This document shows, one piece after another, positions 7,310 through 29,364 of a DNA stretch of 38,284 bases. The stretch is from a virus. The position numbers and the translations under genes are program-made. The notes beneath the pieces are model-generated. The model saw only the letters and a list, made by a program, of their open reading frames with translations. It searched no databases and was not told the DNA's origin. The stretch lies in the IMG/VR virus record IMGVR_UViG_3300029787_000132, positions 1-38,284 of that record. One strand, given 5' to 3'. How positions within the stretch are numbered: position 1 is the stretch's first letter; every line of letters starts with the position of its first letter.

Positions 7310-8215
7310 ATGGCTATTACACGCGCACAACTCCTGAAAGAGCTACTCCCCGGTCTTAACGCACTGTTTGGTCTTGAGTACGAGAAGTACGAAAACGAGC
7401 ATGCTGAGATCTACGAAACGGAGAATTCAGAGCGTAGCTTTGAAGAGGAAGTCAAATTATCGGGCTTTGGCGCAGCGCCAGTTAAGCCTGAAGGTTCGGC
7501 TATCAGCTTCGATTCGGCGCAAGAGTCGTACACCGCTCGTTACAACCACGAAACGGTTGCAATGGGCTTTTCTGTGACCGAAGAGGCCATGGAAGACAAC
7601 TTGTACGATGCTCTCTCGGCTCGTTACACCAAGGCTCTCGCACGGGCCATGGCGTACACCAAGCAGGTCAAGGCAGCAGCACTGCTGAACAACGGCTTCA
7701 CCACCTTCAACTCTGGAGATGGCGTAACCCTGTTCAGCACCTCGCACCCGACTGTAGCTGGTGGCAATAACGCAAACCGTCCCACCACAGATGTTGACCT
7801 GAACGAGACATCACTGGAAGACGCGGTAATCAAGATCGCAGCTTATGTAGATGAGCGTGGCCTTCTGATTGCAGCGCGTCCTCGTAAGCTGATCGTTCCG
7901 CCTGCGTTGATGTTTGTGGCGACTCGTTTGCTGGAAACAGATCTGCGTGTCGGCACTGCTGACAACGATCTGAACGCCATCCGCTCTAACGGCTCTATCC
8001 CAGAGGGGTATCGCGTCAACCACTATCTGACCGATACTGACGCCTTCTACCTGACAACTGACGTTCCTAACGGAATGAAGCACTTTGTCAGGACGCCTAT
8101 GGCAACCTCTATGGACGGCGACTTTGATACCGGAAATGTACGGTACAAGGCTCGTGAGCGTTACAGCTTCGGTGTATCCGATCCACTTGGTATGTTCGCC
8201 TCTCGCGGGGGTTGA
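7310..8215 (+). CDS. Major capsid protein (HK97-like fold)
   Basis: This is the likely main shell protein. It is 301 residues long and sits after the scaffold and accessory head genes. The sequence has features of the Mu gpT-type HK97-fold coat proteins: a charged N-terminal arm and the VAMGFSVTEEAMEDNLYD helix (about 84-101). A spine helix follows, ARYTKALARAMAYTKQVKAA (about 104-123), then GVTLFSTSHPT (138-148) and RPRKLIVPPAL (190-200). A C-terminal strand ends in RYSFGVSDPLGMFASRG. There is no separate delta domain visible. AAGGAG lies just before the ATG. Directly after its stop come a palindrome and two terminator hairpins, so high expression as a separately terminated unit is likely. 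Confidence 0.92.
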   Translation: MAITRAQLLKELLPGLNALFGLEYEKYENEHAEIYETENSERSFEEEVKLSGFGAAPVKPEGSAISFDSAQESYTARYNHETVAMGFSVTEEAMEDNLYDALSARYTKALARAMAYTKQVKAAALLNNGFTTFNSGDGVTLFSTSHPTVAGGNNANRPTTDVDLNETSLEDAVIKIAAYVDERGLLIAARPRKLIVPPALMFVATRLLETDLRVGTADNDLNAIRSNGSIPEGYRVNHYLTDTDAFYLTTDVPNGMKHFVRTPMATSMDGDFDTGNVRYKARERYSFGVSDPLGMFASRGG

Positions 8216-11356: not shown

Positions 11357-12033
11357 TGTCGGTAGTGACGCCTGATCTTCCCGAGATATTTGAAGAAGCC
11401 TTTGAGAGGGCCGGTCTTCAGATGACTACAGGATATGACCTCAAGACAGCCCGTAGAAGCCTCAATCTAATAACATTGGAGTGGCAAAACCGTGGACTTA
11501 ATCTCTGGACTATTGAGTCTGGTACGCAGGCTCTCACAGCAGGGACAGCAACTTATACGCTCCCTACAGACACGATTGATCTCATTGAGCATCAAATTAG
11601 AACCGGCAGTGGAACATCTCAAGTCGATACCAATGTCAGTCGCATCAGCGTTTCGACGTATGCTAAACAAAGCTCTAAAAACACTCAGGGACGCCCTAAC
11701 CAGATTTTTGTAGATCGTCAGGCGACATCAGTTGCAGTGACACTATGGCCTGTTCCTGATCTCAGCACCTACACACTCTTCTATTACAGACTCAAGGGAA
11801 TATCTGGAGTTTCGTCTGGCATCGGAACTACGGCTGACATGCCGCCAAGGTTTGTTCCATGCTTGGCGTCTGGGCTTGCTTACTACATAGCTATGAAAAG
11901 GCCCGAAGTGTCGGATCGTGTGGCACCTCTCAAGCAGGAATACGAGTTCCAGTTTGAGCTTGCGGCAAGTGAGGATACTGATTCATCATCTATCAAGTTC
12001 GTGCCATACAACACATTCTATGCAGGAGGCTAA
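11356..12033 (+). CDS. Neck or head-completion protein (P22 gp4-like)
   Basis: This 225-residue protein probably docks under the portal and closes the head after packaging. It opens with a helical region around [20 protein letters not shown] and [20 protein letters not shown], then beta segments with [20 protein letters not shown]. Further on are [11 protein letters not shown] and [20 protein letters not shown], and a final helix ([16 protein letters not shown]). This order is characteristic of gp4-like tail-accessory proteins of marine and P22-like podoviruses. There is no sign of a muralytic domain such as that reported for P22 gp4. The assignment is based on pattern and on the P22-like portal and gp10-like genes nearby. 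Confidence 0.78.
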
Positions 12034-12034
12034 A

Positions 12035-12817
12035 ATGGCCATGAAAAAGAAGAGCTATCGTAAGGGTGGCGCTATGAAAAAGAAGGGCATGGCCAAAGGT
12101 GGCAAGCTCAAGATGGTTGAAAAAGACGGTAAGAAGGTTCCATTCTTCGCTGCTGACGGTAAAGGCAAGATGGCCAAGGGCGGCATGATGAAGAAGGGGT
12201 ATGCCAAGGGCGGATCTGTAAAGGTCAAGTCTGGCGATACTCTGTCTCAGATTGCAAAGTCGAAGGGCCTGACCCTCAAGGCCCTGCTTGATGCGAATCC
12301 CAGCATCAAGAACGCAAACATGATTCGTGTCGGCCAAAGTATCAAGATTCCAAACACTGCAAAGCCGGGTGGCTCTGGGGCTGTTTCTAAGAACCCATAT
12401 GCTGGTTTGTCCAAGACACAGATGAATATGCTGCGCTCTAAGGACAAAGGCACCCAGAAGGCCGCTACGAGGGGCATGAGGGCGCAGACGAGGACCACAG
12501 CGTCTCCCACTAAGGCGGCCACGGTAAAGGCGTCTAAGGACGGCTCTAAGGCCGCGATGGAGAAGGCTCGTGCGAAGCGTGCAGCAGCTAAGAAGGTTCC
12601 GGTGCCAACATCGAAGCCAGCGAAGCCAACTAGAAAGCGTTCTCCCGGCAGAGGGGCCACTCCAGTTATACCGGATGATAAGAAGCGGAAGCCCAGCCGT
12701 CGTGATGGCAGAAGGGCTATGGGCGGCATGATGAAGAAAAAGGGGATGTCTAAGGGCGGCACTGTTCGTGGTGCTGGCGCGGCGACACGGGGTAAGAGGT
12801 TTGGCAGAGCAGGTTAA
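12035..12817 (+). CDS. LysM protein with Lys/Gly-rich repeats (260 aa)
   Basis: This protein likely binds peptidoglycan through one LysM domain at residues 62-106 ([17 protein letters not shown] to VGQSIKIPN). On both sides are unusual Lys/Gly/Met repeats such as [10 protein letters not shown] and [10 protein letters not shown] at the front and [11 protein letters not shown] at the end. Between them is a Lys/Ala/Pro-rich disordered linker. The start at 12035 was chosen because AGGAGG lies at 12024-12029. An in-frame ATG at 11918 would add 39 residues, but it sits inside the neck gene and has no supporting site. The repeats may coat DNA or membranes. A virion-associated, wall-binding role is inferred; no hydrolase domain is present. 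Confidence 0.8.
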
Positions 12818-14017: not shown

Positions 14018-14665
14018 ATGTCGCTTACTTTCGCAGAACTCAAAACGGCTATTCAGGATTTTACTGAAAACACAGAGACGACGTTTGTAAACAACATCTC
14101 TAGGTTTATCCGCACGGCAGAAGATCGCATCTTTTACATGGTCGATCTTGAGTATTTCCGTAAGAACGCCACAAGTGCAGTAAGTCAAAACGATCCGTTT
14201 CTATCTCTTCCAACAGACTTTCTGGCTTCGTTTTCTTTATCTATAACAAATGGAAGCTCAAAACAGTTTCTCTTGCCAAAGGATATTAACTTCATACAAG
14301 AGGCACACACAAACTCCACATCAACCGGAACTCCCCTGTATTACGCTAGATTTGATGTCGATAACCTTTTGTTAGGCCCTACACCGGATAGCAACTATGT
14401 TTGTGAGTTTCATTATTTCTACAGGCCAGCATCACTGACTGCTGGAGCAGAAAGTGGTACTACATGGTTAAGCACCAACGCCCCCAAGGCGCTTCTTTAC
14501 GGTTCATTGTATGAGGCGTATATTTACATGAAGGGGGAGCCTGATATGTTAGAAACATATGATAAGCAGTTTACTGAGGCCCTTAACAGGCTGAAAGATC
14601 TTGCAGAGGCAAGAGAGAATACAGACGCTTACCGTAGGGGTCTGCCAGAACGCCCCCGCACATAA
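14018..14665 (+). CDS. Tail or neck adaptor protein (215 aa)
   Basis: This encodes a 215-residue connector-like protein. Its N-terminus, SLTFAELKTAIQDFTENTET, followed by FVNNISRFIRTAEDRIFYMV, is a helical segment typical of adaptor proteins of marine phages. The centre holds beta segments (FLSLPTDFLASFSLSITNGS and YYARFDVDNLLLGPTPDSNY). The C-terminal helix region includes PKALLYGSLYEAYIYMKGEP and a charged tail. It differs from the gp4-like protein at 11356 but has the same helix-sheet-helix order, so the two may form successive rings below the portal. Confidence in a structural connector role is good; the exact ring is not known. Confidence 0.78.
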   Translation: MSLTFAELKTAIQDFTENTETTFVNNISRFIRTAEDRIFYMVDLEYFRKNATSAVSQNDPFLSLPTDFLASFSLSITNGSSKQFLLPKDINFIQEAHTNSTSTGTPLYYARFDVDNLLLGPTPDSNYVCEFHYFYRPASLTAGAESGTTWLSTNAPKALLYGSLYEAYIYMKGEPDMLETYDKQFTEALNRLKDLAEARENTDAYRRGLPERPRT

Positions 14666-16328: not shown

Positions 16329-16541
16329 ATGCTTAATTTTCATTCTGAATCAGAGTACATACTTCTCTCTACACCATTACCTCTTGTAAAGATTCGCTGT
16401 AGAGACGAACGTGGAAGCGAAGATGTCACTGTTTTTGAAGAGATAACGGATATAGAGGAAATGGATTTGCTTTCAATTCTAAGTGCTTGTGAAGAGGCTT
16501 ATGAAAAATGGCAAAATGAAAGAACTAAGGCTGGTGAATAA
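16329..16541 (+). CDS. Small acidic protein beside the fibre gene (70 aa)
   Basis: This encodes a 70-residue acidic protein with a beta N-terminal part (YILLSTPLPLVKIRCRDE) and a helical acidic C-terminus (MDLLSILSACEEAYEKWQNE). There is no membrane segment. Its ATG lies two bases after the previous stop, and its stop overlaps the ATG of the large fibre gene (TAATG). Small genes at this place sometimes encode fibre-assembly chaperones; that role is only suggested by position. I do not recognise a family. Confidence 0.65.
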   Translation: MLNFHSESEYILLSTPLPLVKIRCRDERGSEDVTVFEEITDIEEMDLLSILSACEEAYEKWQNERTKAGE

Positions 16542-18625
16542 TGGCAACTTATTGGTTAGACCCTTTTCTTGAGGCTACCACCCAAGGTAACGGTACTACC
16601 GATACCTCCACCAGAGATGGTGCGTATGCTTCACCATATTCACTTTTAGATTTTTCTGGCACTAGCTCCACAGTTACAAATTTTTCCTTTGCGGATGGCG
16701 ACGAGCTTCGCATTAAGGGACTTTCTTTCAGTACACTGTTTGAAACAATGGGTAATGTTTACGCCCCCGGTACTGGGGGTGTGGATACTTATTTATACGG
16801 TTACTTAACTCCAGTAACAGGCAATACAGATTTTGTTGATACTCTAAACACTACTAAATCTTGTTGTTTTGCATTTCAAAATAGCGACATATCAACTTAC
16901 TTTCCAAACTGGAGTCATCCATTTTTTTTCGTTGGGTATGGGAACAACACCTCCAGAATAAATACCCCAGTTGGCACTTTTCATCATGCGGTTGTAAAAA
17001 CTCAACTGGGTCACGGTTCTGCAAGTGATACGGGTATTGAACTTTTTCGAGTCAAAGATACATACGCCAACGTCATAACTCACTCGTCTAATATTTATTT
17101 TTTTAATATTAGTTACAAGGTCACATTGTCAGCCGGATGGACAAGCGAAACCGCTCAAGGTGGCTATAGCATTCTTGAAACAGCCGGCAGTAGTAGTGGT
17201 AATCTTTATATTCTCGGTAATGCTAATAACAAAATTAAATTAGACTGTGAGCGTCTTCTTGTTGTTCGTAGTTATGGTTTTTCTGGTGTTAATAGTTATA
17301 ACGGAGTCTATGTCGAAGTTGTAGACCTTGACGCAAGGGTAGAAGCAACTGATCACATTGCTCCACAATTAATTGTAGCAACATATTGGCAATTTTACTT
17401 ATATGTTGACACATATCCCGGCAGCACCACTACATGGCCCATGGTTAGCGGAGGTAAGCAATATTCTGGAGCGCCGTATATAACTTATCAACACACCAGT
17501 AATACGAGTCGCACGGGTTCGAGCATAATTAAAAACTATGTAAGTAATTGGAGTTACATTTACGTATTAAATTCTAATAACAATCACGCGATGTCTTTTG
17601 GTAACTTTTATGGTCCTACTTGGGATGGAACTGATGGCAATAACCGCATAATACGATTTGCCACTTCGGGCGTCGGACCATTGACGTTTTTGCAGGATAG
17701 CGTCTACTACATGATTGCAGAGGATAATACTACCGCAATTACTATAGATGCAGACCCCATATACGGAAACGGTCAGGCATACCAGACCGGCCTTAAACAA
17801 CCCGGCGCAGCACCATTAGCAAACGTCTCTCTATCGAATACAATAGGGCCATCCAGAGGGGCTACATTAAATTCAAGTTCTTCGGGTGCAGAATTATTCA
17901 CTACAACAAAAAATGTCGGGACAGGAAATTCATGGTTCGAGTCTGTCTTAGGCAGAACAGGCTTTAATCCGATAGAATATACTTCTTTACTAGAACTCAC
18001 TTGTAACACTAATGATTATAGAACAACCGCGCACAATATTGCCGTTCTCACAGGTACAGCGTTAGGGGCAACAGATGCTCCTAAATATTCAATTTTTAGT
18101 GCTGAAAGTAATGATTTTGATGGCAAACCTTTATCAATCATAGGTGACCCATATACCGCAGGAGTTAATTATGGCGCTCTTCTATATAATGATGTTGTAA
18201 GCAGTACGAGTGTGTTGGTTGGGCAGTGGTCTGGCAATACTGCAAGTGCATCTACGCAGTCTTGGATTCCACTTGAACTTTCTGTGCCAACCTACACCGC
18301 CGGGGTAAGCAACCTTAGAGTTACAGTATCGTCTGCTTACGCGGATGGTGCTAGTAACTCAGCCGCAGGTTCTATTCTTTTACGAGCTTGGCACAGAGAT
18401 GATACGCAAAGTGACAACTTCCGTGTTTATAGTTCGTCGGCTACGGCTATATCTGCCGGTGGTAATCCTTCATCGACAACCACAGTAACACTAAATTTAT
18501 CGAACGTACAAACAAGCGGTCAGGAGAAGATAACAAGTGTCATCGTCGGTATACGTTTAGATTTTACGAGTAATACAAACATACAAAAATACTACATAAC
18601 CAATGCCGCTATAGAGACATACTAA
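16541..18625 (+). CDS. Large receptor-binding or tailspike-like protein (694 aa)
   Basis: This is a 694-residue beta-rich protein, heavy in Ser, Thr, Asn, Gly and Tyr. It starts with ATYWLDPFLEATTQGNGTTD, a block found at the front of phage proteins that carry beta-helix or surface-binding domains. The middle has many short strands of the right-handed beta-helix kind (IFRV, YFFNISYKV, LYILGNANNKIKL, VYVEVVDLDARV). The last 150 residues resemble a jelly-roll module (QSWIPLELSVPTY, NLRVTVSSAYADG, FRVYSSSATAI). No catalytic site is evident. The gene is visibly more AT-rich than the packaging genes. It probably determines host binding and may be recently exchanged. Confidence 0.78.
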   Translation: MATYWLDPFLEATTQGNGTTDTSTRDGAYASPYSLLDFSGTSSTVTNFSFADGDELRIKGLSFSTLFETMGNVYAPGTGGVDTYLYGYLTPVTGNTDFVDTLNTTKSCCFAFQNSDISTYFPNWSHPFFFVGYGNNTSRINTPVGTFHHAVVKTQLGHGSASDTGIELFRVKDTYANVITHSSNIYFFNISYKVTLSAGWTSETAQGGYSILETAGSSSGNLYILGNANNKIKLDCERLLVVRSYGFSGVNSYNGVYVEVVDLDARVEATDHIAPQLIVATYWQFYLYVDTYPGSTTTWPMVSGGKQYSGAPYITYQHTSNTSRTGSSIIKNYVSNWSYIYVLNSNNNHAMSFGNFYGPTWDGTDGNNRIIRFATSGVGPLTFLQDSVYYMIAEDNTTAITIDADPIYGNGQAYQTGLKQPGAAPLANVSLSNTIGPSRGATLNSSSSGAELFTTTKNVGTGNSWFESVLGRTGFNPIEYTSLLELTCNTNDYRTTAHNIAVLTGTALGATDAPKYSIFSAESNDFDGKPLSIIGDPYTAGVNYGALLYNDVVSSTSVLVGQWSGNTASASTQSWIPLELSVPTYTAGVSNLRVTVSSAYADGASNSAAGSILLRAWHRDDTQSDNFRVYSSSATAISAGGNPSSTTTVTLNLSNVQTSGQEKITSVIVGIRLDFTSNTNIQKYYITNAAIETY

Positions 18626-18626
18626 A

Positions 18627-19577
18627 ATGCCAATATCAAGAGTAGGCGCATTAGGATTCTATGACACTAGCACTGTTAGTTCTCTCGGTTTTGTTGATGA
18701 AACCTACACCGAAACAACGGTTTTTGTATATTTACCTACTTTAGTTGCTACTACAAATTTAGGAACAATAGTAGCTACTACTGACGCTCCTCTACTGCCG
18801 TCTCTTTCAGCTACAATCAGTTTAGGAACTGTTATTGCTATAGGCGGGGAAACCGTCGTTCCGATAGCCGCCGGTGTAGTTGCGACCACAGCCATAGGAG
18901 TTGCTGAACTTTTAACCCCTATGACGAATATAAAAATAGGTTCCGTTACCCCGACGGAAATTCATGTAGGAGGGACGCAAATATTTAAGGTTTATGCTGG
19001 TCCTAATCTGGTATGGTTCCAAACACAAGGACAGCCGGTTGGTTTTTCAAGTAGTCTTCTAAGCATTACTGGACAAAACTCATCATGGAATCAACAAACG
19101 ATTGACATAAGCGCGTATGCAGGAAATACGGTTTATTTTGTTGTTAAATACACATCAGGAAATAGTTTCAGAGGTGACTTTCAAATTGATGATGTGACTA
19201 TAGATGGGACTACTTACAACTTTGACAGCAATGCCACTGGATGGCAAACATCGGCTGCAACCTCTTTGGGTCAAACCTTTACTTACAGTAGTATTAGCTG
19301 GGTAGATGTAGCTACTGCAAGTACCACAGGTAGGTGGAATAGAGATGCCAATGGAACAGGTTCGGGTGGTACGGGATTAAGTGTCGATCACACGCTTGGA
19401 ACTTCATCTGGGTTCTACCTGTATACCGAAGTAACTAGTCGTTACAATGGCACTGAGTTTTGGCTACGAAGCCCTTCAATAACTCTAAGTGCTAGCCCCG
19501 GAGATTTGACGTTCTGGGAAGCAAGATATGGGAGCAATATGGGTTCCAGTGAATACTTCTTGGATGTAACAGCCTGA
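18627..19577 (+). CDS. Tail adhesin with permuted MAM-like halves (316 aa)
   Basis: The 316-residue protein starts with short Ala/Thr/Leu-rich repeats (about 36-95, units like LVATTNLGTIVATT). A phage module with IKIGSVTPTEIHVGGTQIFK follows (102-121). After that are two segments that look like the halves of a MAM adhesion domain in reverse order. Residues 154-195 (WNQQTIDISAY, GDFQIDDVTI) resemble a MAM C-terminal half. Residues 224-316 (GLSVDHTLGTSSGFYLYTEV, FWLRSPSITL, LTFWEARYGSNMG) resemble the N-terminal half and stop where the second half should begin. The protein is thus a permuted or two-partial-copy arrangement. It likely binds a surface ligand. The next frame does not continue the domain, so a simple frameshift is unlikely. 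Confidence 0.75.
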   Translation: MPISRVGALGFYDTSTVSSLGFVDETYTETTVFVYLPTLVATTNLGTIVATTDAPLLPSLSATISLGTVIAIGGETVVPIAAGVVATTAIGVAELLTPMTNIKIGSVTPTEIHVGGTQIFKVYAGPNLVWFQTQGQPVGFSSSLLSITGQNSSWNQQTIDISAYAGNTVYFVVKYTSGNSFRGDFQIDDVTIDGTTYNFDSNATGWQTSAATSLGQTFTYSSISWVDVATASTTGRWNRDANGTGSGGTGLSVDHTLGTSSGFYLYTEVTSRYNGTEFWLRSPSITLSASPGDLTFWEARYGSNMGSSEYFLDVTA

Positions 19578-19597: not shown

Positions 19598-22447
19598 TTG
19601 TTTTCAACTTCTGCATTTTCAGAACTACCTTTTGCAGCGGCTCCCGCCGCCGCCACTGGTACTGTAAAGACAGCAGTTGCCAGCCTCTCTGCAAACTTTA
19701 CTCAAACAAGCGCGGCAATAAATGTCGCGTCCGCTGTTGCAGAAATATCTGGCACATCTTCTGCGGTAAATGTGGGCGTTGGCGTGCTTGTTGGCGCATC
19801 AACCGTATCATCTAATTTTACAGAATCCGTAGATGCTATCGGTGTTTTAAGTGGTGTTGCGTCTCAATCTGCAAACTTCACAGAGACAGCGTCAGCCATA
19901 GGTGTGCTGTCTGGAACCGCATCTCAATCTGCAAACTTTACCGAAACTTCTATTGGCACGAGAATACAAGCTGGTATTTCAGAACAGTCTTTCTCGTTTA
20001 CCAAAACCTCTGTTGGTGTGGGTGTTTTCTCCGGCACTTCTAGTCAGGATCTTACTTTCACTGAAACGGCGGTCGGCACCAGAGTGCAAACCGCTTCAGC
20101 TTCCCTGTCTGCTAATTTCACCGAAACCTCTATTGGCACAAGAATACAGACAGGTGTTTCCCAACAATCGTCTGCCTTTACCAAAACATCATCTGGTGTT
20201 GGCGTACTCTCTGGAGTTTCGTCTCAAAGTCTAGATTCCACACAAACTGCAATTGGTACTAGGGTACAAACAGCCTCATCGTCTCAATCTGCTAACTTCT
20301 CCGAAACGGCGTCTGCGGTAGCCGTTTTAACAGATTCGGCCACGCTGTCGTCCTCTCTAGAACAAACTAGCGTTGGATCTGGGGTACTTGTCACAGGTGC
20401 AGATTTAAGCGGAACATCTTCTGCTTTGTCTGTGGGTGTGGGCGTTATTGCTGCAAATGCCACGCTTACATCTAGCTTTACTAAAACGACTAATGCTATC
20501 GGCGTCCTGTCAGGGGCTTCGTCGCAAGATACAAACTTTACCAAAACAACATCTGCCATAAGGGTGTTGTCTGGCAGCTCCTCCCAAGATTTAAATTTTA
20601 CACAAACGACCACGCCAACGCGGATACAGACGGGCGTGTCTCAACAATCATCTGCATTCACTGAAACTTCAGCGGCAGTAAGAGTGCGGCTTGGGGCGTC
20701 GTCTCAATCTTCTAATTTTACGAAGACGAGTTCTGCGTCTCGTACTTTATCTGGTGTTTCTTCACAGGATCTTAATTTTACAAAGACCTCTATAGGCACT
20801 CGATTACGCACCGCGACCTCAACGCAATCTGCAAACTTTGATCAAACAGCCACGGCTATTGGAGTTTTAGTTGACTCTGCGTCGATGTCATCTCTGTTTG
20901 ATCAGAGCAGCAATGGCGTCAGAATTTTAGTCTCTTCAGCAGATTTAAATGGTGCATCTGCATCGGCGTCTGTGGGTGTTGGGGTGCTTGCTGGAACAGC
21001 CACAGCATCTGCTGCGTTCACAAAGACATCATCGGGCATTGGGGTGCTTTCAGGCGTCTCATCCCAATCGGCAAACTTGTCCCAGACAACCACGCCTACA
21101 GCCATTTTAGTAAGCAGCGCAGATTTCGTTACATCATCTACTCAGACAGTTAGTGGCGATACAACGGGGCTTCTGCTTGCATCATCCTCTTTGTCATCAA
21201 ACTTTGCCAAAACAACCATAGCCACACGATTAAGAACCGGATCATCGTCTCAATCTTCAAACTTCACTCAAGAAGCATCTGCACTAAAAATCTTGTCCGG
21301 CATATCTGAACAGTCCTCGGCCTTTACAAAAACTGCATCAGCGGTTGGTGTTTTCTCAGGCGTATCGTCACAGGATCTAAACTTTACAAAGACATCAATA
21401 GGGACGGGCATACGAGTTGCAAGCTCATCACAGTCCGCCGCATTTACAGAGACGGCATCCGCGTTACGTATCCGAACTGGCATTTCTTCACAAGAACTGA
21501 ACTTCATCAAAACAGCTACAGGTGGGTTGATACGGCCAGCGACCTCTAGCCAGTCTGCCAGCTTCACACAAACTGGAGTTGGGACAAAGATACTGACAGG
21601 TGTGTCTACGCAAACATTTAACTTTACACAAACTGCCAATGGTGTGGCGGTTATTGTTGATTCAGCGACCTTTTCATCCTTGTTTGAGCAATCAACCGCT
21701 GCAAATGCAACTTTCAGCGGCGCATCAGAGATAAGCGGCGCAGCTTCAGCTTTATCAGTTGGTGTTGGCATCCTCGTAGGAACGTCCTCTGTATCGTCAA
21801 ACTTTGTAAAGACGGGCATTGGCACGAAGATATTGATAGGGGCGTCCTCTCAATCTCTGAACACAGCCCAAACATCACAAGGCACTAGACTTAGGACGGC
21901 AGACGCCGACATGTCGTCTGCGTTTGATCAAACCAGTGTACCCACACACATACAAGTTGCTGTGTCTGAACAAGAGTTTGGGTTCATCAAAGAGGCTGTT
22001 GGAAGCCTGACCGCTGTGGGGGCTTCAGATCTTTCACTTCTAATGCTACAATCCACGCAAGGTGATATAAAATTTGTTGTAGTTGACGCAGAACAATCTG
22101 TTGAAACTTGGTCTGAAATCTCGCACACAGGAGATACGTGGGCTAATTTGAGCGCATCCGGCACTGGTGAATCATGGGCGGGGATAAGTCATACGGGCGA
22201 CACTTGGTCAGAAATCACACACACTGGTGATACATGGACAGAAGTTACACATGCTGGAGATACATGGACAGAAGTTACGCACACAGGTGATACGTGGACA
22301 AATCTTGGCGCTTCGGGAAGTAACGAGTCATGGACGAGCATCTCCCACACTGGTGACACATGGACAGAAGTGACGCATGATGGCGATACGTGGGCAGACT
22401 TAGACGCTGATACTAGTGCGGAATCATGGGCAGAAATGGTGGACTAA
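19598..22447 (+). CDS. Repeat fibre with 20-residue units and tryptophan-repeat tip (949 aa)
   Basis: The protein is almost entirely repeats. From residue 28 to about 828 there are about forty tandem units of 20 residues, of the type SSQSANFTETASAIGVLSG. An aromatic sits at about position 7, alternating Thr/Ser follow, and a hydrophobic IGVL stretch closes the unit. This pattern suits a beta-solenoid or a long trimeric shaft. From about 835 to the end, a different 9-residue repeat, HTGDTWTEV, appears with regularly spaced tryptophans (ESW, DTW), which may form a binding tip. The TTG start at 19598 is preceded by TTAGGA. No enzymatic motif is seen. It is probably a long tail fibre; length could change by repeat slippage. 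Confidence 0.8.
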   Translation: MFSTSAFSELPFAAAPAAATGTVKTAVASLSANFTQTSAAINVASAVAEISGTSSAVNVGVGVLVGASTVSSNFTESVDAIGVLSGVASQSANFTETASAIGVLSGTASQSANFTETSIGTRIQAGISEQSFSFTKTSVGVGVFSGTSSQDLTFTETAVGTRVQTASASLSANFTETSIGTRIQTGVSQQSSAFTKTSSGVGVLSGVSSQSLDSTQTAIGTRVQTASSSQSANFSETASAVAVLTDSATLSSSLEQTSVGSGVLVTGADLSGTSSALSVGVGVIAANATLTSSFTKTTNAIGVLSGASSQDTNFTKTTSAIRVLSGSSSQDLNFTQTTTPTRIQTGVSQQSSAFTETSAAVRVRLGASSQSSNFTKTSSASRTLSGVSSQDLNFTKTSIGTRLRTATSTQSANFDQTATAIGVLVDSASMSSLFDQSSNGVRILVSSADLNGASASASVGVGVLAGTATASAAFTKTSSGIGVLSGVSSQSANLSQTTTPTAILVSSADFVTSSTQTVSGDTTGLLLASSSLSSNFAKTTIATRLRTGSSSQSSNFTQEASALKILSGISEQSSAFTKTASAVGVFSGVSSQDLNFTKTSIGTGIRVASSSQSAAFTETASALRIRTGISSQELNFIKTATGGLIRPATSSQSASFTQTGVGTKILTGVSTQTFNFTQTANGVAVIVDSATFSSLFEQSTAANATFSGASEISGAASALSVGVGILVGTSSVSSNFVKTGIGTKILIGASSQSLNTAQTSQGTRLRTADADMSSAFDQTSVPTHIQVAVSEQEFGFIKEAVGSLTAVGASDLSLLMLQSTQGDIKFVVVDAEQSVETWSEISHTGDTWANLSASGTGESWAGISHTGDTWSEITHTGDTWTEVTHAGDTWTEVTHTGDTWTNLGASGSNESWTSISHTGDTWTEVTHDGDTWADLDADTSAESWAEMVD
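19679..22081 (+). repeat. About forty tandem 60-nt coding repeats
   Basis: The coding DNA repeats with a period of 60 bases, matching 20 codons, from 19679 to about 22081. Units keep phase along the region apart from one 22-codon unit near 21121-21186. Third-position differences among units show that they have diverged under selection on the protein. It is not a CRISPR array, as there are no conserved non-coding repeats with unique spacers. Confidence 0.9.
22103..22438 (+). repeat. Tandem 27-nt coding repeats with GDTW motif
   Basis: The last part of the fibre gene repeats a 9-codon unit, of the kind THTGDTWTEV with variants (SHTGDTWSE, THAGDTWTE). Longer spacer units containing ASGTGESWAG or ASGSNESWTS appear about every third or fourth repeat. 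The evenly spaced tryptophans are the most conserved positions. Confidence 0.85.
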
Positions 22448-23518
22448 ATGGCTTCTTCATACACAAACAATCTTGGCATAGAAAAGCCCGGCTCTGGCGA
22501 GCAGGCTGGAACGTGGGGAACAACCACAAATTTAAACTTTGATATAATAGATAGAGCCGTCTCTGGGGTTGGAGCAGTAACTCTTTCTAACACCACGCAT
22601 ACCTTGACTACAGAGGACGGCATCCTTTCGGAAGGCGGTCACCGGGTTCTTGTGTTGGGGGGATCGCCGTCAGGCACAAATACCATAACAATTTCGCCCA
22701 ATGATCAAGATAAGGTGTATTTGGTAAAGAATGGGTCTGGTCAGACTGCCACATTCAGCCAAGGTTCTGGCGCAAACGCCTCTGTAGTAAATGGTGAAAT
22801 TGCTTGGATCTTTGCGGATGGCGCTGGTGCTGGTGCTGCGGTTGAAAAGGCTGAGTTCACTCCAGACATTGTGAACGACCTGACTCCGCAGTTGGGCGGC
22901 AATTTGGATGTTAATGCGAAGAATATCACGTTTGGCGACAGCAGTGGCGCATCTGATGATCGCTTGACCTTTGGCGCAGGTACAGATCTTTCCATATACC
23001 ATGACGGCACTGATTCAAACATCGTCAACGCAACAAACGAGCTTAATATAAAAGGCGATGGCATTACGTTGTTGAGCAACACAAGCGGCGAGGAATACAT
23101 CACCTGTGATCTTAATGGTGCGGTTACGCTCTACCACAATGATGTCATCAAAGCCGCAACAACCGCGAATGGCCTGTCTATCACTGGCACAGCGGTAGCG
23201 ACCACAAACACGGATACCAGCAACTCAGGTAATGTAACTTTAGATTTTTCAGCGAATCAAAATTTTGTGCTGACGTTGACAGGCGATGTAACGCTCGACA
23301 ACCCCACCACAGAACAGGTTGGACAATCCGGCTTTATTGTTTTCATTCAAGATAGCACAGGTGGTCGCGAGGTGAGCCTTGGTACACAGTACAAGACGAA
23401 AGGTGGCGTAAATACACTGAATTTATCTAGTGCTGCTGCTGCAATTGATCTTGTGCCTTACGTTGTTATAGCCGCAGACAGTATCCTGTTAGGCACACCG
23501 CAAAAGAATTTCAGTTAG
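22448..23518 (+). CDS. Tail fibre protein with IYHDGTDSNI motif (356 aa)
   Basis: This is a 356-residue fibre protein. It begins YTNNLGIEKPGSGEQAGTWG (about 5-24), a block seen at the front of many phage fibre proteins, and continues with Gly/Thr/Asn-rich strands. RLTFGAGTDLSIYHDGTDSN (about 172-191) is a block that recurs in fibre and spike proteins of marine viruses. The C-terminus has VTLDFSANQNFVLTLTGDVT and ends QKNFS. There is no catalytic motif. It starts directly after the repeat fibre gene stop and ends ten bases before the LamG/SPRY gene, so the fibre genes form one unit. Confidence 0.82.
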   Translation: MASSYTNNLGIEKPGSGEQAGTWGTTTNLNFDIIDRAVSGVGAVTLSNTTHTLTTEDGILSEGGHRVLVLGGSPSGTNTITISPNDQDKVYLVKNGSGQTATFSQGSGANASVVNGEIAWIFADGAGAGAAVEKAEFTPDIVNDLTPQLGGNLDVNAKNITFGDSSGASDDRLTFGAGTDLSIYHDGTDSNIVNATNELNIKGDGITLLSNTSGEEYITCDLNGAVTLYHNDVIKAATTANGLSITGTAVATTNTDTSNSGNVTLDFSANQNFVLTLTGDVTLDNPTTEQVGQSGFIVFIQDSTGGREVSLGTQYKTKGGVNTLNLSSAAAAIDLVPYVVIAADSILLGTPQKNFS

Positions 23519-23527
23519 GAGCCTCTC

Positions 23528-26500
23528 ATGTCAGGCCCATTCGGTGCAGGTGGTTTAGGGTTTTTTGGTACGGCAGAGTTCTATGATTATCTGTTGAAGC
23601 GTTCTCTGCGTTTCAATAATGATGGCTCAACAGGGGCAACTGGAACTACAAGTCGATTAAAATTTACACCTGACAGTGCAGGCACTAGCAACACTGACTG
23701 GACTGTATCATTTTGGATCAAGCGTAACTTACTTAGTACGACACAAGATATCATTGATGTGGGTGCGGGTGATGGAACGGGGGGTTCGGGATCAAGCGAC
23801 AGCAACACTGATTCCATTCAGTTTCAGTCAGATGACACCATACGCATCCAAAATAATGGAAGCGCAATTCTACACACAAATTCCCTATTCCGCGACACAT
23901 CTGCTTGGTACAACATCGTCGTCAAATCAGATGCCGACAACGGCACTGCCGCTGACAAGCTGAAGGTTTATATTAACGGAGTGGATCAAGATGATAGTGC
24001 CGCTGGCGGCGGTGGGTTCAGTACGGATAATAGAAGTGGCCTGTCTTCTTGGGCAGAATTTGGATCAACTGATCCGATACAAATAGGCGCACGGATATAC
24101 AACAACGCCAACAACCTCGACGCATATCTAGCTGAGTTTCACTACGTTGATGGCACGGCTTTGACCGCATCGTCATTTGGTGAAACAAAAGAAGGTATCT
24201 GGATATCAAAACAATACACAGGCAGTCATGGCACCAATGGTTTTTATTTAAACTTTACCGACGACAACAGCGCCGCAGGGTTTAGTTCTGTTGCATACAC
24301 AGGTCCGATACCAAAGGCATCGCCTCAAGATACGACAGGTGAGGTCACAGGTGTAGGTTTTCAACCTGATTTTGTCTGGATAAAAAACAGAACAAACGGA
24401 AATAATCATCAGCTATATGATGTTGTAAGAGGCATTACTTCAAGCGGAACACAAGTAATCCACACCAGCTCACCGAACGCAGAATCGACCAGCAATAATA
24501 ATGGCGGCGTTTCAGCAATAACTGTTGATGGGTTTACAGTCAAGGCAGGGACTGATGGCGGCAGTGACCCGTCTAATACAACACGGGCTAACCTCGTTGG
24601 TGGTGATAATCACAATTATGTCGCGTGGAATTGGCAAGCAGGAGGTGCGCCCACAACGGACAACAGCGCAGGCGCTGGTAACGTCCCAACAGCAGGCTCT
24701 GTCAAGATTGACGGTTCTAATTCGGGGTCTGCTTTGGCTGGCACCATACCAGCTACAAGATTATCAGCTAACACAACCTACGGCTTTAGTATCGTCACCT
24801 ACACTGGGACGGGTGTGAATGGTGCAACTGTAGCGCACGGTTTGGGTTCCGCCCCCACAATGATTTTTATAAAATCAAGATCAGCCACAAGCGCAGATGG
24901 CAATTGGGTCGTCTATGCTAAAGCGGGAACAGTAGATGAGACAGATTATCAATTATTAAACTCAACCGTTGAGGCGACTGATGCAGTAGGGGCATTCAAT
25001 GACACGGCGACCACATCAGATGTGTTTTCGCTAGGGACTTTCGATGATGTGAATGAAAGCACTAAAACCTATGTGGCATATTGTTGGGTTGACGTTTCAG
25101 GTTACAGCAAAATAGGTGGCTATACTGGCAACGGCTCTACTGGGCAAACTATCACAACGGGTTTCAAAGTAGGCTGGCTCATGGTCAAGCGGACAGATGT
25201 AGCCAACTCATGGTACATCGTTGACAACACCCGCTCTCCGAATACCGCCGCAGGCAATGATGATTTGCTTTACGCAAACCTAACCAGCATTGAAGGTTCA
25301 ACAAACGATTTCTTGTCCTTAACCAGCACAGGCTTTACGCTCAACTCAGATTCTCCAGCCGTAAATACTAGCACCGGCGAATATATTTATATGGCATTCA
25401 AGGACACCCGCACCAATGCGTATTATTTAGATCAGTCAGGCAATGCAAATAATTTTGCGGCAACAGGTTTGGAGTACAAAGATTCACGCCCTGATTCTCC
25501 AACTAATAACTCAGCTACCTTTAACGCTCTAGTTAAAGACCTAAGATACGCCACTGCACTTTCTGACGGCAACAAGACAATCACTTTCACATCTGGTAGC
25601 AGCGGTTTTTCGGGTTGTCCCATGACAATATTCCGCAATGAGGGAAAGGCGTATTGCGAAGTTAATCTTGACGTTACGTATTCTGGCGACAGCACTGACA
25701 GTCAATGCGTCTTTGTTGTTGATGACGGGCAAGATTTTTCAGCCATTGGAAGCGGTTCGCAAAACAGCGCATTGGTTGGGTCTTACTGCGGCGGCGGTTC
25801 AGGTAGCGCACCCGCTGAAATTAGCAGCAACGGATCAGATCAAGGTGGTTCGCCAAGCAAGTACCGCACGCAAAATGATCGTGTCGGCGTTTACATAGAT
25901 TTTGATGGTGATGGCACAAATGGCAAAGGTTTCTTTGCTTTAAACGGTACAGTGCAAACCGTCAACGGTACGCCTGACATTGCGAACGGCACCAACCCAC
26001 ACTTTACCTTCACAGCAAATAGCAGACTTACGGTTGGTGTGGGCGGCATACATGCTGGCACTCCCGCCGTGCTTACTTTGAAAGATGACTCTAGTGATTG
26101 GGAAACAACCCCACCTTCTGGATATACATCTTTTTCAACGGCCAATCTGCAAGACCCTGCAATTGATCCGAATAAAGGCGATGATCCAAAAGAATATTTT
26201 AATACGGTTCTCTACATAGGTGACGGTTCTTCAAATAGAGGAATCACAGGAGTAGGATTTTCTCCTGATTTTCTCTGGATTAAAGATAGGGTAGCCACAA
26301 ACAATCACATTTTAGTGGACAAGGTGAGAGGTGTAGCTAAATTACTCTTCTCTAATAGTAATATAGCAGAAATTTCTGGTGCAACCCAAATAGCAAGCCT
26401 AGATGCGGATGGCTTTACGTTGGGAACAAGCACAACATATGTAAATGAAAATGGCAGTTCAAATGCTTATGTGGCATGGAATTGGAAAGCTGGCGGCTCT

Positions 26501-27211
26501 ACACAAACAACCAATACTGACGGAACAATCACCAGCTTGGTATCTGTTAGTGCTGAATCTGGATTTAGCGTTGTTGCATACACTGGCACAGGTTCCGCTG
26601 GCACAGTGGGACACGGACTTGGAAAGGCTCCAGCGTGGATAATCATTAAAAACAGAGGCACAGGAAATAGAGAATGGCTAATATATCATCACGAATCAGA
26701 GGGCGTTCCTCAAAATTTTGGTATGTTTTTTACTAATGCTGATCCATTTGATGATGACTCTGCATTCAACGACACGGCTCCTACAACAGACGTTTTTAGT
26801 GTAAAAAATTCAACTTCTTCAAATAACACAAGTGAAGAATATATTGCTTACTGTTTTGCAGAGATAGAAGGTTATAGTAGGTTTGGTCGTTTTGCTGCCG
26901 TAGGTGGTGCAGATAATAGTTTTATTTATCTAGGTTTCAGACCAGCGTGGTTCTTAATTAAACGCGTAAATGCAGACGGATACGATTGGGTTCTTTACGA
27001 TAACACGCGTGATCCGTTTAACGTAGGTAGCACTAGAGTAAGCCCAAATTTATCAAATGCTGAAGTTACTGGTGCCAGCAATTACGGAATTGACTTTGTG
27101 TCGAACGGAGTAAAGTTACGTTCAGGACAAGCTGACACTGCTACAGATGGCGGCACATACATTTACATGGCTTTCGCTGAACAGCCATTCAAATATGCAA
27201 ACGCGCGATAA
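23528..27211 (+). CDS. Large tail protein with LamG-like and SPRY-like domains (1227 aa)
   Basis: This is the largest complete product in the window. Its order is a LamG-like lectin domain (about 15-220; WTVSFWIKRN, WYNIVVKSDAD, AYLAEFHYVDG), module A1 (about 275-367; GVGFQPDFVWIKNR to VAWNWQAGG), module B1 (about 416-634), an SPRY-like domain (about 677-868; RVGVYIDFDGDG, GKGFFALNGTVQ), then module A2 (about 909-988; GVGFSPDFLWIKDR to VAWNWKAGG) and module B2 (about 1010-1227). B1 and B2 share YIYMAF, GHGLGKAP-like and KRTD/KRVN motifs, so A and B are tandem duplications around the SPRY domain. Such proteins are common in marine phages and probably bind carbohydrate on the host surface. No hydrolase site is evident. 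Confidence 0.85.
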   Translation: MSGPFGAGGLGFFGTAEFYDYLLKRSLRFNNDGSTGATGTTSRLKFTPDSAGTSNTDWTVSFWIKRNLLSTTQDIIDVGAGDGTGGSGSSDSNTDSIQFQSDDTIRIQNNGSAILHTNSLFRDTSAWYNIVVKSDADNGTAADKLKVYINGVDQDDSAAGGGGFSTDNRSGLSSWAEFGSTDPIQIGARIYNNANNLDAYLAEFHYVDGTALTASSFGETKEGIWISKQYTGSHGTNGFYLNFTDDNSAAGFSSVAYTGPIPKASPQDTTGEVTGVGFQPDFVWIKNRTNGNNHQLYDVVRGITSSGTQVIHTSSPNAESTSNNNGGVSAITVDGFTVKAGTDGGSDPSNTTRANLVGGDNHNYVAWNWQAGGAPTTDNSAGAGNVPTAGSVKIDGSNSGSALAGTIPATRLSANTTYGFSIVTYTGTGVNGATVAHGLGSAPTMIFIKSRSATSADGNWVVYAKAGTVDETDYQLLNSTVEATDAVGAFNDTATTSDVFSLGTFDDVNESTKTYVAYCWVDVSGYSKIGGYTGNGSTGQTITTGFKVGWLMVKRTDVANSWYIVDNTRSPNTAAGNDDLLYANLTSIEGSTNDFLSLTSTGFTLNSDSPAVNTSTGEYIYMAFKDTRTNAYYLDQSGNANNFAATGLEYKDSRPDSPTNNSATFNALVKDLRYATALSDGNKTITFTSGSSGFSGCPMTIFRNEGKAYCEVNLDVTYSGDSTDSQCVFVVDDGQDFSAIGSGSQNSALVGSYCGGGSGSAPAEISSNGSDQGGSPSKYRTQNDRVGVYIDFDGDGTNGKGFFALNGTVQTVNGTPDIANGTNPHFTFTANSRLTVGVGGIHAGTPAVLTLKDDSSDWETTPPSGYTSFSTANLQDPAIDPNKGDDPKEYFNTVLYIGDGSSNRGITGVGFSPDFLWIKDRVATNNHILVDKVRGVAKLLFSNSNIAEISGATQIASLDADGFTLGTSTTYVNENGSSNAYVAWNWKAGGSTQTTNTDGTITSLVSVSAESGFSVVAYTGTGSAGTVGHGLGKAPAWIIIKNRGTGNREWLIYHHESEGVPQNFGMFFTNADPFDDDSAFNDTAPTTDVFSVKNSTSSNNTSEEYIAYCFAEIEGYSRFGRFAAVGGADNSFIYLGFRPAWFLIKRVNADGYDWVLYDNTRDPFNVGSTRVSPNLSNAEVTGASNYGIDFVSNGVKLRSGQADTATDGGTYIYMAFAEQPFKYANAR

Positions 27212-27225
27212 GGGGATAGTTAGCT

Positions 27226-29364
27226 ATGCCACTTACAAAATTACAGTTTAGGCCGGGCATAAACCAAGAGGTCACCTCGTACTCTAACGAAGGTGGCTGG
27301 CGAGACTGTGACAAAATCCGCTTTCGGATGGGTTACCCAGAAAAGCTAGGCGGTTGGGAGAAGTTATCGTCATCAACGTATCTTGGATCTGCACGGGCGC
27401 TGCATAACTGGATAGCTCTTGACGGCTCAGACTATCTTGGAATTGGCACACATCTCAAATATTACATCGAAGAAGGTGGTGGTTTTAACGACATTACACC
27501 TCTGCGTGTAACCACTAGTGCCGGTGATATAACTTTTGCCGCTACAAATGGCAGCGCCACGATCACTGTTACAGATACAGCGCACGGTGCTGTTGAGGGC
27601 GACTTTGTCACGTTTTCTGGCGCGGCGTCTCTGGGTGGATTGATCACTGCCACAATCTTGAATGCAGAACATCAGATCGCCAGCATCATCAATGTTAACA
27701 GTTATACGATCACAGCGAGTGTGGCAGCTAATTCTAGTGACACAAGCAATGGCGGTTCTAGCGTTATCGGCGCATATCAAATTAACACAGGTCTTGATAC
27801 TTCAGTTGGCGGCACGGGTTGGGGTGCTGGTTTATACGGCGGTGTGGCAGCGGGTGCGTTAGAGACAACGATTAACGAAGGCGGCGAATTTTCCAATTCT
27901 GACACCACGCTCACCGTGACAAGTGGCACAGGCATTGCCAACAATGACCTGATATTGATTGACAATGAGATACTGGAAGTCACCAACGTCGCCACTAACG
28001 ATCTCACTGTGACACGCGCCCAATCAGGCACAGAAGCCGCTGCTCACGCCAATGGCTCCACCGTAACTTTGATATCTGGCAATGCGAGTGCAGCTAACGA
28101 TTATTTTGGCTGGGGTGACGCCGCGTCTGGTGGCCTAACAACCACGACACAGATACGTCTGTGGTCACATGACAACTTTGGTGAAGATCTGCTTATCAAC
28201 CCACGGGATAGCAACATCTACTATTGGGATCGAACAAACAACCTACCTAGCCGTGCTGTTGAACTATCTACACGCAGCGGCACAAAAACGAGTGTCCCGC
28301 AGAAGGCAAAACAAGTTCTTGTGTCCGATCAAGACAGGCACGTTATTGTATTTGGGTCAGATGGTTTGGGGGGAAGTTCAAGCGCCACACAGGGTGATGG
28401 GGTGCAAGACCCCCTGCTAATACGTTTTTCTAGCCAAGAAAACCCAATCGATTTCTTCCCGACATCCACCAATACTGCTGGTGATTTGCGACTCGGTTCT
28501 GGCTCTACCTTTGTTCAGGCGGTAGAGACAAAGCGTGAGATACTTGTTTGGACGGATACAGCTTTATTTTCTATGCAGTTTATTGGTCCTCCGTTCACTT
28601 TTGGCCTGTCTCAGCTTGCCTCTAACATCACAATCATGGGTCCAAACGCAGCGGTGTCTACAGAGGATGTTGTGTATTGGATGGGAATAGATAACTTCTA
28701 TGTATATTCTGGCCGCACACAACAACTGCCATGCACTGTAAAAGAAAAGGTATTCGGAAACTTTAACAGAGCGCAATCTGACAAAGTCACATCGGGAATA
28801 AATTCAGAGTTTAGTGAGATATTTTGGTTTTATCCCTCTTCTAGTGCTTCGGATAATGACAGATACGTGGTGTACAATTATCTGGAGCAGATTTGGTATT
28901 TTGGAACGCTGGCAAGAACGGCATGGCTAGATCGTGGGACAAGGTCAAATCCCATGGCTGCGGGCAGTCAATACATATACAATCACGAGATTGGGTTTGA
29001 TGATGATGGGTCAGCTATGACCTCGTTTGTTGAGTCTGCCGGTATTGATATAGGTGATGGAGATAAGTTTACTTATATCAGGAGAGTAATACCTGATTTG
29101 TCATTCATAGGTTCTACAAATCTCAGCAGTCCACAAGCAGTCTTCACCATAAAGTCCAGAAGATTCCCCGGCGCTACATTCGACAACACAGATTCCGGCA
29201 CGGCGATTGGCTCTGTATCAGGCGACGTAGAGACATTTACAGAGCAGTTGCATTTAAGATCTAGGGGCAGGGCATTTGCATTGAGAGTGGAAAGCACAGC
29301 AGTGGGGACCAAATGGAAGTTGGGAAGCCCACGAGTTGATTCTCGCGCAGATGGAAGACAATAA
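27226..29364 (+). CDS. P22 gp10-like packaged DNA stabilisation protein (712 aa)
   Basis: The opening LQFRPGINQEVTSYSNEGGW and the following WRDCDKIRFRMGYPEKLGGW (about 26-45) match the N-terminal signature of gp10-like stabilisation proteins, which form a ring below gp4 and hold the packaged DNA in. The gp10-like body continues with LLINPRDSNIYYWDRTNN, VFGSDGLGGSSSATQGDG, and LVWTDTALFSMQFIGPPFTF, then YWMGIDNFYVYSGRTQQLPC and YNYLEQIWYFGTLARTAW. An inserted region of about 180 residues (about 90-285, including TITVTDTAHGAVEGDFV) makes it longer than P22 gp10 (472 residues). Co-occurrence with a P22-like portal and gp4-like neck supports the call. Confidence 0.85.
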   Translation: MPLTKLQFRPGINQEVTSYSNEGGWRDCDKIRFRMGYPEKLGGWEKLSSSTYLGSARALHNWIALDGSDYLGIGTHLKYYIEEGGGFNDITPLRVTTSAGDITFAATNGSATITVTDTAHGAVEGDFVTFSGAASLGGLITATILNAEHQIASIINVNSYTITASVAANSSDTSNGGSSVIGAYQINTGLDTSVGGTGWGAGLYGGVAAGALETTINEGGEFSNSDTTLTVTSGTGIANNDLILIDNEILEVTNVATNDLTVTRAQSGTEAAAHANGSTVTLISGNASAANDYFGWGDAASGGLTTTTQIRLWSHDNFGEDLLINPRDSNIYYWDRTNNLPSRAVELSTRSGTKTSVPQKAKQVLVSDQDRHVIVFGSDGLGGSSSATQGDGVQDPLLIRFSSQENPIDFFPTSTNTAGDLRLGSGSTFVQAVETKREILVWTDTALFSMQFIGPPFTFGLSQLASNITIMGPNAAVSTEDVVYWMGIDNFYVYSGRTQQLPCTVKEKVFGNFNRAQSDKVTSGINSEFSEIFWFYPSSSASDNDRYVVYNYLEQIWYFGTLARTAWLDRGTRSNPMAAGSQYIYNHEIGFDDDGSAMTSFVESAGIDIGDGDKFTYIRRVIPDLSFIGSTNLSSPQAVFTIKSRRFPGATFDNTDSGTAIGSVSGDVETFTEQLHLRSRGRAFALRVESTAVGTKWKLGSPRVDSRADGRQ

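Follow-up and report, generated by a model that had tools for sequence, protein, structure and literature searches.

A putative length-variable shaft protein of exact 20-residue repeats in podovirus-type marine phages

The reach of the adenovirus fibre is set by its repeat number, and the curli proteins CsgA/B are built of ~20-residue two-strand repeats that bear a likeness to the units described here. The shaft of the native adenovirus fibre comprises 22 repeats (PMC8869412). In the tail fibre of Enterococcus phage EfV12-phi1, tandem duplications of 1.8-kb blocks evolved experimentally under host resistance (PMC6365445); the delta head fibre of Orsay virus is a pentameric β-bracelet with an 8-residue period (PMC7565637), and the HTVC023P-type pelagiphages include members encoding curli secretion systems together with CsgA/B (PMC9599517).

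The locus analyzed here lies in a 38,284-base virus record with podovirus-type gene order, and this whole stretch of DNA is referred to as the window. Its repeat protein resembles each of these systems in part. Like the adenovirus shaft, a triple β-spiral, it would form a rod of short β-repeats between an anchoring and a binding end; the two share no sequence match, however, and here the unit is exactly 20 residues long with an NFTxT core and is seen as a monomer model only. As in EfV12-phi1, the copy number changes in frame and in tandem, there in a tail fibre gene and here in a tail-module gene, but instead of 1.8-kb blocks we find 60-nt units exchanged in blocks of 4-5 in natural populations. 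With the Orsay delta fibre it shares short strands, 3-residue loops and a length defined by repeats, all taken here from a low-confidence model in which strand and turn together span ~10 residues; the sequences are unrelated. Our search of the literature on 20-residue fibre repeats of phages and on variation in repeat number returned no directly relevant work. The ORF, as argued below, probably encodes a shaft of variable length, part of a fibre or spike associated with the tail of a podovirus-type marine phage, a reading in which we infer virion location, fold and oligomeric state.

Gene setting and architecture of the repeat protein

The repeat gene is encoded within a tail/adhesin gene module, and it is this position that suggests a fibre role for its product. 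The main genes of the window are:

696-2204: terminase
2216-4654: portal
7310-8215: major capsid protein
14018-14665: SU10-type adaptor
16541-18625: 694-aa tail-region protein (g16541), no significant Pfam or PHROG match
18627..19577, + strand: upstream neighbour with a MAM domain (Pfam MAM, E 3e-12)
22448..23518, + strand: conserved downstream neighbour g22448, MASSYTNNLGIEKPGSGEQAGTWG leader, phrog_31104
23528..27211, + strand: LamG-like + DUF7483 tail fibre/virion structural protein, variable among relatives
27226..29364, + strand: virion structural protein g27226, phrog_3287, homologues annotated as 'stabilization protein'; gene used for the backbone tree

After g27226 come a holin with three transmembrane segments (3TM), a phage lysozyme and further structural genes. 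By terminase, the closest phage records (55-58% identity) are 023Pt_psg01, Pelagibacter phage HTVC027P and DSL-LC04, and HTVC023P-type pelagiphages are among the nearest isolates. The MAM protein has a GLGFYDT-type leader and about three LSATxSLGTVxA repeats in addition to its MAM domain; homology between its first 100 residues and the 20-aa units was considered and is unsupported by hhalign. Elsewhere in the window, the ORF at 11918-12817 contains, as judged by eye, Lys/Gly-rich repeats and, after them, a stretch resembling LysM; a 33-nt tandem repeat at 12041-12103 underlies the former.

The repeat gene itself is organized as follows:

19598..22447, + strand: repeat-protein ORF, 949 aa; TTG start, aligned with GTG/TTG/ATG starts of relatives
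19598..19657, + strand: N-terminal leader (LFSTSAFSELPFAAAPAAAT), M[FL]GxxAFxExxFA in relatives (alignments); presumed attachment end
19658..21157, + strand: units 1-25, 20 aa each, residues 21-520 (unit HMM)
19718..19777, + strand: unit 2, cap-like, GTSSAxxVG type, without aromatic residue
19838..20137, + strand: units 4-8, site of the unit 4/unit 8 chimera of L001, in which 240 nt are missing
20318..20677, + strand: units 12-17, site of the unit 12/unit 17 chimera of L001, in which 300 nt are missing
20378-20437, 20918-20977 and 21704-21763, + strand: cap-like units resembling unit 2 (higher-order repeat of 9-13 units)
21158..21163, + strand: sole length change, +2 residues (translation and unit layout)
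21164..22063, + strand: units 26-40, 20 aa each, residues 523-822 (unit HMM)
22064..22444, + strand: C-terminal tail of 11 aromatic repeats of ~10 residues, WTEVTHTGDT type; presumed distal end or tip

A ~20-residue leader, which reads FSTSAFSELPFAAAP in the window, 40 units and a 127-residue tail thus make up the ORF. The first-pass annotation had described about forty 20-residue repeats with one clear length change, and this description holds: a unit HMM finds 40 domains, arranged as 25 and 15 units of exactly 20 aa on either side of a single insertion of residues 521-522. The units follow an approximate consensus of TGVLSGVSSQSSNFTQTSVG. Phe occupies position 14 and Thr position 17 in 30 of the 40 units each, position 3 is Val, Ile or Leu in 37, and position 20 is Gly, Ala or Pro in every one. 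The array consists of 20% Ser, 14% Thr and 12% Ala with neither Cys nor Trp, and the whole protein has a pI of 4.6.

In the protein the period is pronounced, with a self-identity of 0.33 at lag 20 and 0.34 at lag 60 and a highest value of 0.15 in 200 shuffles across lags 1-129; in the DNA the corresponding 60-nt period is invisible to TRF, whose sole report within the ORF is a 30-nt unit (3.2 copies, 81% matches) that falls among the Trp repeats of the C-terminus, at 22205-22300. Pairs of units average 34% amino acid and 44% DNA identity, with a top DNA identity of 75%, which marks the array as old and diverged rather than as simple sequence. Since the longest exact internal repeat measures 20 nt in the window gene and 15 nt in L001, a relative with 31 units, assembly artefact or collapse is unlikely for both, and so is an assembly error in the count of 40. 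The corresponding repeats reach 46 nt in L002 and 56 nt in L158, which makes their counts of 44 units each somewhat less secure. The cap-like units of the window are units 2, 13, 22 and 35; such units recur in the remaining long members and, in several members with 14 units, as units 2 and 9. Their spacing would fit growth of the array by duplication of multi-unit blocks.

Distribution of the family and turnover of its units

Neither the window protein nor relatives with few and many units match Pfam above curated cut-offs, and across the family, window protein included, no PHROG is better than E 0.007 and no PDB sequence better than E 0.25. The initial impression that the units match no common phage fibre repeat is borne out by these searches, and the protein is a member of a previously uncatalogued phage protein family. 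Scans of IMG/VR identified ~100 contigs encoding relatives. All full members share the leader and the 20-residue units and end in an aromatic tail of ~10-residue period; the window protein has all of these features as well as synteny with g22448. In nearly all relatives covering the region, the gene lies directly upstream of a g22448 homologue and a few kb ahead of a g27226 homologue. Bacterial genome contigs that were scanned gave no match to any relative, and an HMM search found no homologue in the scanned stretches of HTVC027P, HTVC023P, 023Pt_psg01, CRP-901, DSL-LC04 and CRP-811. A tblastn search of phage records with the repeat protein was likewise without match, a negative weakened by active low-complexity masking. 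No isolate or proteome in this analysis yielded a family member.

In some phages, this slot or one beside it is occupied by proteins that resemble the family in layout and bear other repeats. L163 (3512-5338) encodes a protein with the same leader type and 24 units of ALVAKGAASVSGAASVSVTG that follows a relative of the MAM protein and is only distantly similar to the family; its array is homogenized in DNA (60 nt x 18.4 copies, with a 240-nt higher-order unit) and is a better candidate for slippage than that of the window. In L186 (5282-7291) and L216 (5885-7006), GVAGTGAIGTVTV-like or related ~22-aa repeats are combined with aromatic C-terminal repeats. Against Pfam and PHROGs, these look-alikes from L163, L186 and L216 scored below threshold for every family.

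Comparison of repeat numbers among related genomes, which the first-pass annotation had proposed, reveals strong variation: the family has members with 4/5, 6-10, 14, 18, 30, 31, 40 and 44 units, 4-5 being the commonest count. Long alleles are those of L159 (30 units), L001 (31), the window (40), L002 (44) and L158 (44), and the MAM neighbour accompanies most alleles of 30 or more units. The C-terminal tail ranges from 22 to 127 residues. In a backbone-based sample, for which loci were picked via g27226 and not via the repeat, the slot was covered in 40 cases; the repeat gene is present in 31, and the other nine have a different protein or nothing of this type. Fourteen of the 31 carriers have 4-5 units, eight have 9 and five have 14, and counts of 6, 10, 18 and 44 occur once each. 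Moreover, L168 and L169, whose g27226 is 91% identical to that of the window, have a slot without a repeat gene of this type. Because the gene is missing from these two genomes and from 9/40 loci, the group as a whole does not depend on it, and L168 and L169 indicate that the whole cassette is exchangeable.

How unit number relates to phylogeny is seen in a midpoint-rooted g27226 tree of 66 rows. The window, with 40 units, groups with L068, which has 14 and whose g27226 is 91% identical over 712 columns; downstream of the array, lysozyme, holin and g29610 of the two are 98-100% identical in amino acid sequence. Together with five 5-unit phages they form a 7-row clade with 100% SH-aLRT. Two further large clades are uniformly 5-unit, save for one truncated row. 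With truncated rows set aside, the tree requires a minimum of three switches between '5' and 'more', whereas none of 50 label shuffles required fewer than 12; consequently, unit number is heritable yet not fixed. On a root placed only at the midpoint, a 5-unit ancestor is plausible. The stability of the minimal length in other lineages indicates that length is not simply drifting.

Closely related alleles reveal how the array changes. Between the window and L001, retained units are mostly 92-100% identical in DNA, and L001 lacks window units 5-8 (exactly 240 nt) and 13-17 (exactly 300 nt), that is, four and five units. Each breakpoint in L001 is one chimeric unit, composed of the head of unit 4 and the tail of unit 8 or the head of unit 12 and the tail of unit 17, and each switch point has 5 nt of shared sequence (TCTGC and AAACT, respectively). 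Loss in L001 would be simpler than duplication in the window because the missing units have no near-identical copy there. In L158 and L002, both with 44 units, most retained units are 97-100% identical; L158 lacks units 8-11 of L002 and has four extra units after unit 1, so that one loss of four and one gain of four leave the total unchanged. The deletion junction has 9 nt in common, ACCGAAACA, located in the conserved FTET core. Chimeric units with 5-9 nt of shared sequence thus occur at the three junctions examined, and block events separate alleles that are ~97% identical in DNA.

In-register blocks of 4-5 units and short junction homology point to whole-block recombination in the conserved core of the units. 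The first-pass annotation had invoked replication slippage, which describes these changes poorly: neighbouring units average 44% DNA identity and are too diverged, and the observed events remove or add blocks of 4-5 units in register, with chimeric units at junctions that share 5-9 nt exactly. Slippage on identical neighbours was accordingly rejected as the main mechanism for the window array, given its mean unit DNA identity of 0.44 and the lack of a 60-nt TRF array.

Across the 29 units shared by the window and L001, dN/dS is 0.125; the array is therefore kept as protein under purifying selection. The repeat gene is 91-96% identical in DNA between the two, compared with amino acid identities of 55% for g16541, 70% for the MAM protein and 59% for the LamG/DUF7483 protein. 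The product of 16541-18625 is also just 47-55% identical in L002 and L001, which are otherwise close to the window. A conserved repeat gene beside diverged neighbours is the pattern expected if a common shaft is paired with receptor-binding parts that can be exchanged.

Predicted fold and competing readings

AlphaFold2 modelling of the full window protein as a monomer, from a 17-row alignment, gave an all-β structure with strands of ~7 residues every 10 residues, that is, two per unit, connected by 3-residue turns. The mean pLDDT is 44, and the best stretch, near residues 90-190, attains about 60-64; an AlphaFold model of a 5-unit relative shows the same strand pattern, also at a pLDDT of 44. 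Foldseek found no match in PDB or BFVD at E<=0.001, and VIA-align second looks returned mostly β-solenoids of low sequence identity: the APK16 tailspike (Z 14.9), EtpA (12.5), Awp1 (12.2 over residues 54-264 at 3.6 Å) and the HK620 tailspike (10.1). The right-handed β-solenoids APK16, HK620 and EtpA are the best of these structural matches; they were obtained with a low-confidence model and lack sequence similarity, so that the likeness of the modelled repeat to β-solenoids is suggestive only. The coils of known tailspikes are also more irregular in length than the exact 20-residue units found here.

The solenoid shaft anticipated by the first-pass annotation is therefore partly upheld, by the two 7-residue strands per unit and by the dominance of β-solenoids in the second look, and is weakened by the pLDDT of 44 and by the lack of a significant Foldseek match. 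The same balance applies to the strongest rival of a length-variable shaft, namely a monomeric right-handed β-solenoid adhesin or tailspike-like stem with one coil per unit, in which the solenoid surface binds ligand and unit number would mean valency rather than reach. The modelled unit geometry and the structural matches speak for this rival, but monomeric solenoids are usually modelled by AlphaFold2 with high confidence, and we consider it unlikely. An obligate multimer, for instance a trimeric fibre, could account for the weakness of the monomer prediction. Taken further, the protein might represent a new fibrous β-fold of 10-residue strand-turn modules, two to each 20-residue unit, whose chains are probably intertwined, since the monomer prediction fails. 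Natural phage populations might keep adjusting the length of the rod as diverged units recombine in register, which would make otherwise near-identical alleles polymorphic in length; we offer this combination tentatively, as a doubtful proposal.

Two readings would place the protein elsewhere. Synteny cannot tell head from tail fibres, and a head fibre or capsid decoration protein might have its gene merely located among tail genes; the gene lies, however, between MAM/lectin-like and tail genes and far from the capsid gene at 7310-8215, and we judge this highly improbable. Slightly less credible still is an extracellular fibre protein of functional-amyloid or curli-like type, produced in the course of infection and no part of the virion, a reading prompted by the curli systems of HTVC023P-type pelagiphages. 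Its repeats of ~20 aa, its Ser/Gln/Asn-rich two-strand units and the predominance of five units are reminiscent of curli, but the window gives no hit to PF07012 (Curlin_rpt), for which the E. coli control was positive. Secretion genes of the CsgG/CsgF families are likewise absent among the window proteins scanned, a set that leaves out some small ORFs of a record that may be a fragment, and the gene sits in a structural tail module. The shaft reading, for its part, has to accommodate the 5-unit majority of relatives, which would give a very short shaft.

A model for length variation and its meaning

For a length-variable shaft, the following picture can be envisaged. The N-terminal leader most likely anchors the repeat protein to the tail, and the 20-residue β-units would make up an extended rod. 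The C-terminal aromatic repeats may constitute either the distal end of this rod or the site at which the variable lectin-like adhesins encoded alongside dock. Unit number would then set rod length. Forty units would measure about 19 nm if each were a solenoid coil of 0.48 nm, or about 70 nm if the shaft were a triple β-spiral with the residues per length taken from PMC7565637. In-register recombination between non-adjacent units would delete or insert whole blocks with the frame intact, and exchange of the host-recognition cassette between phages would also change unit number. Rod length, in turn, may affect host contact.

The locus thus introduces an uncatalogued marine phage family, presumably structural, whose natural members form a graded length series while their gene context is conserved, and it documents turnover of whole-unit blocks between near-identical alleles. 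The role of fibre length in adsorption is an old question, which these natural alleles make testable.
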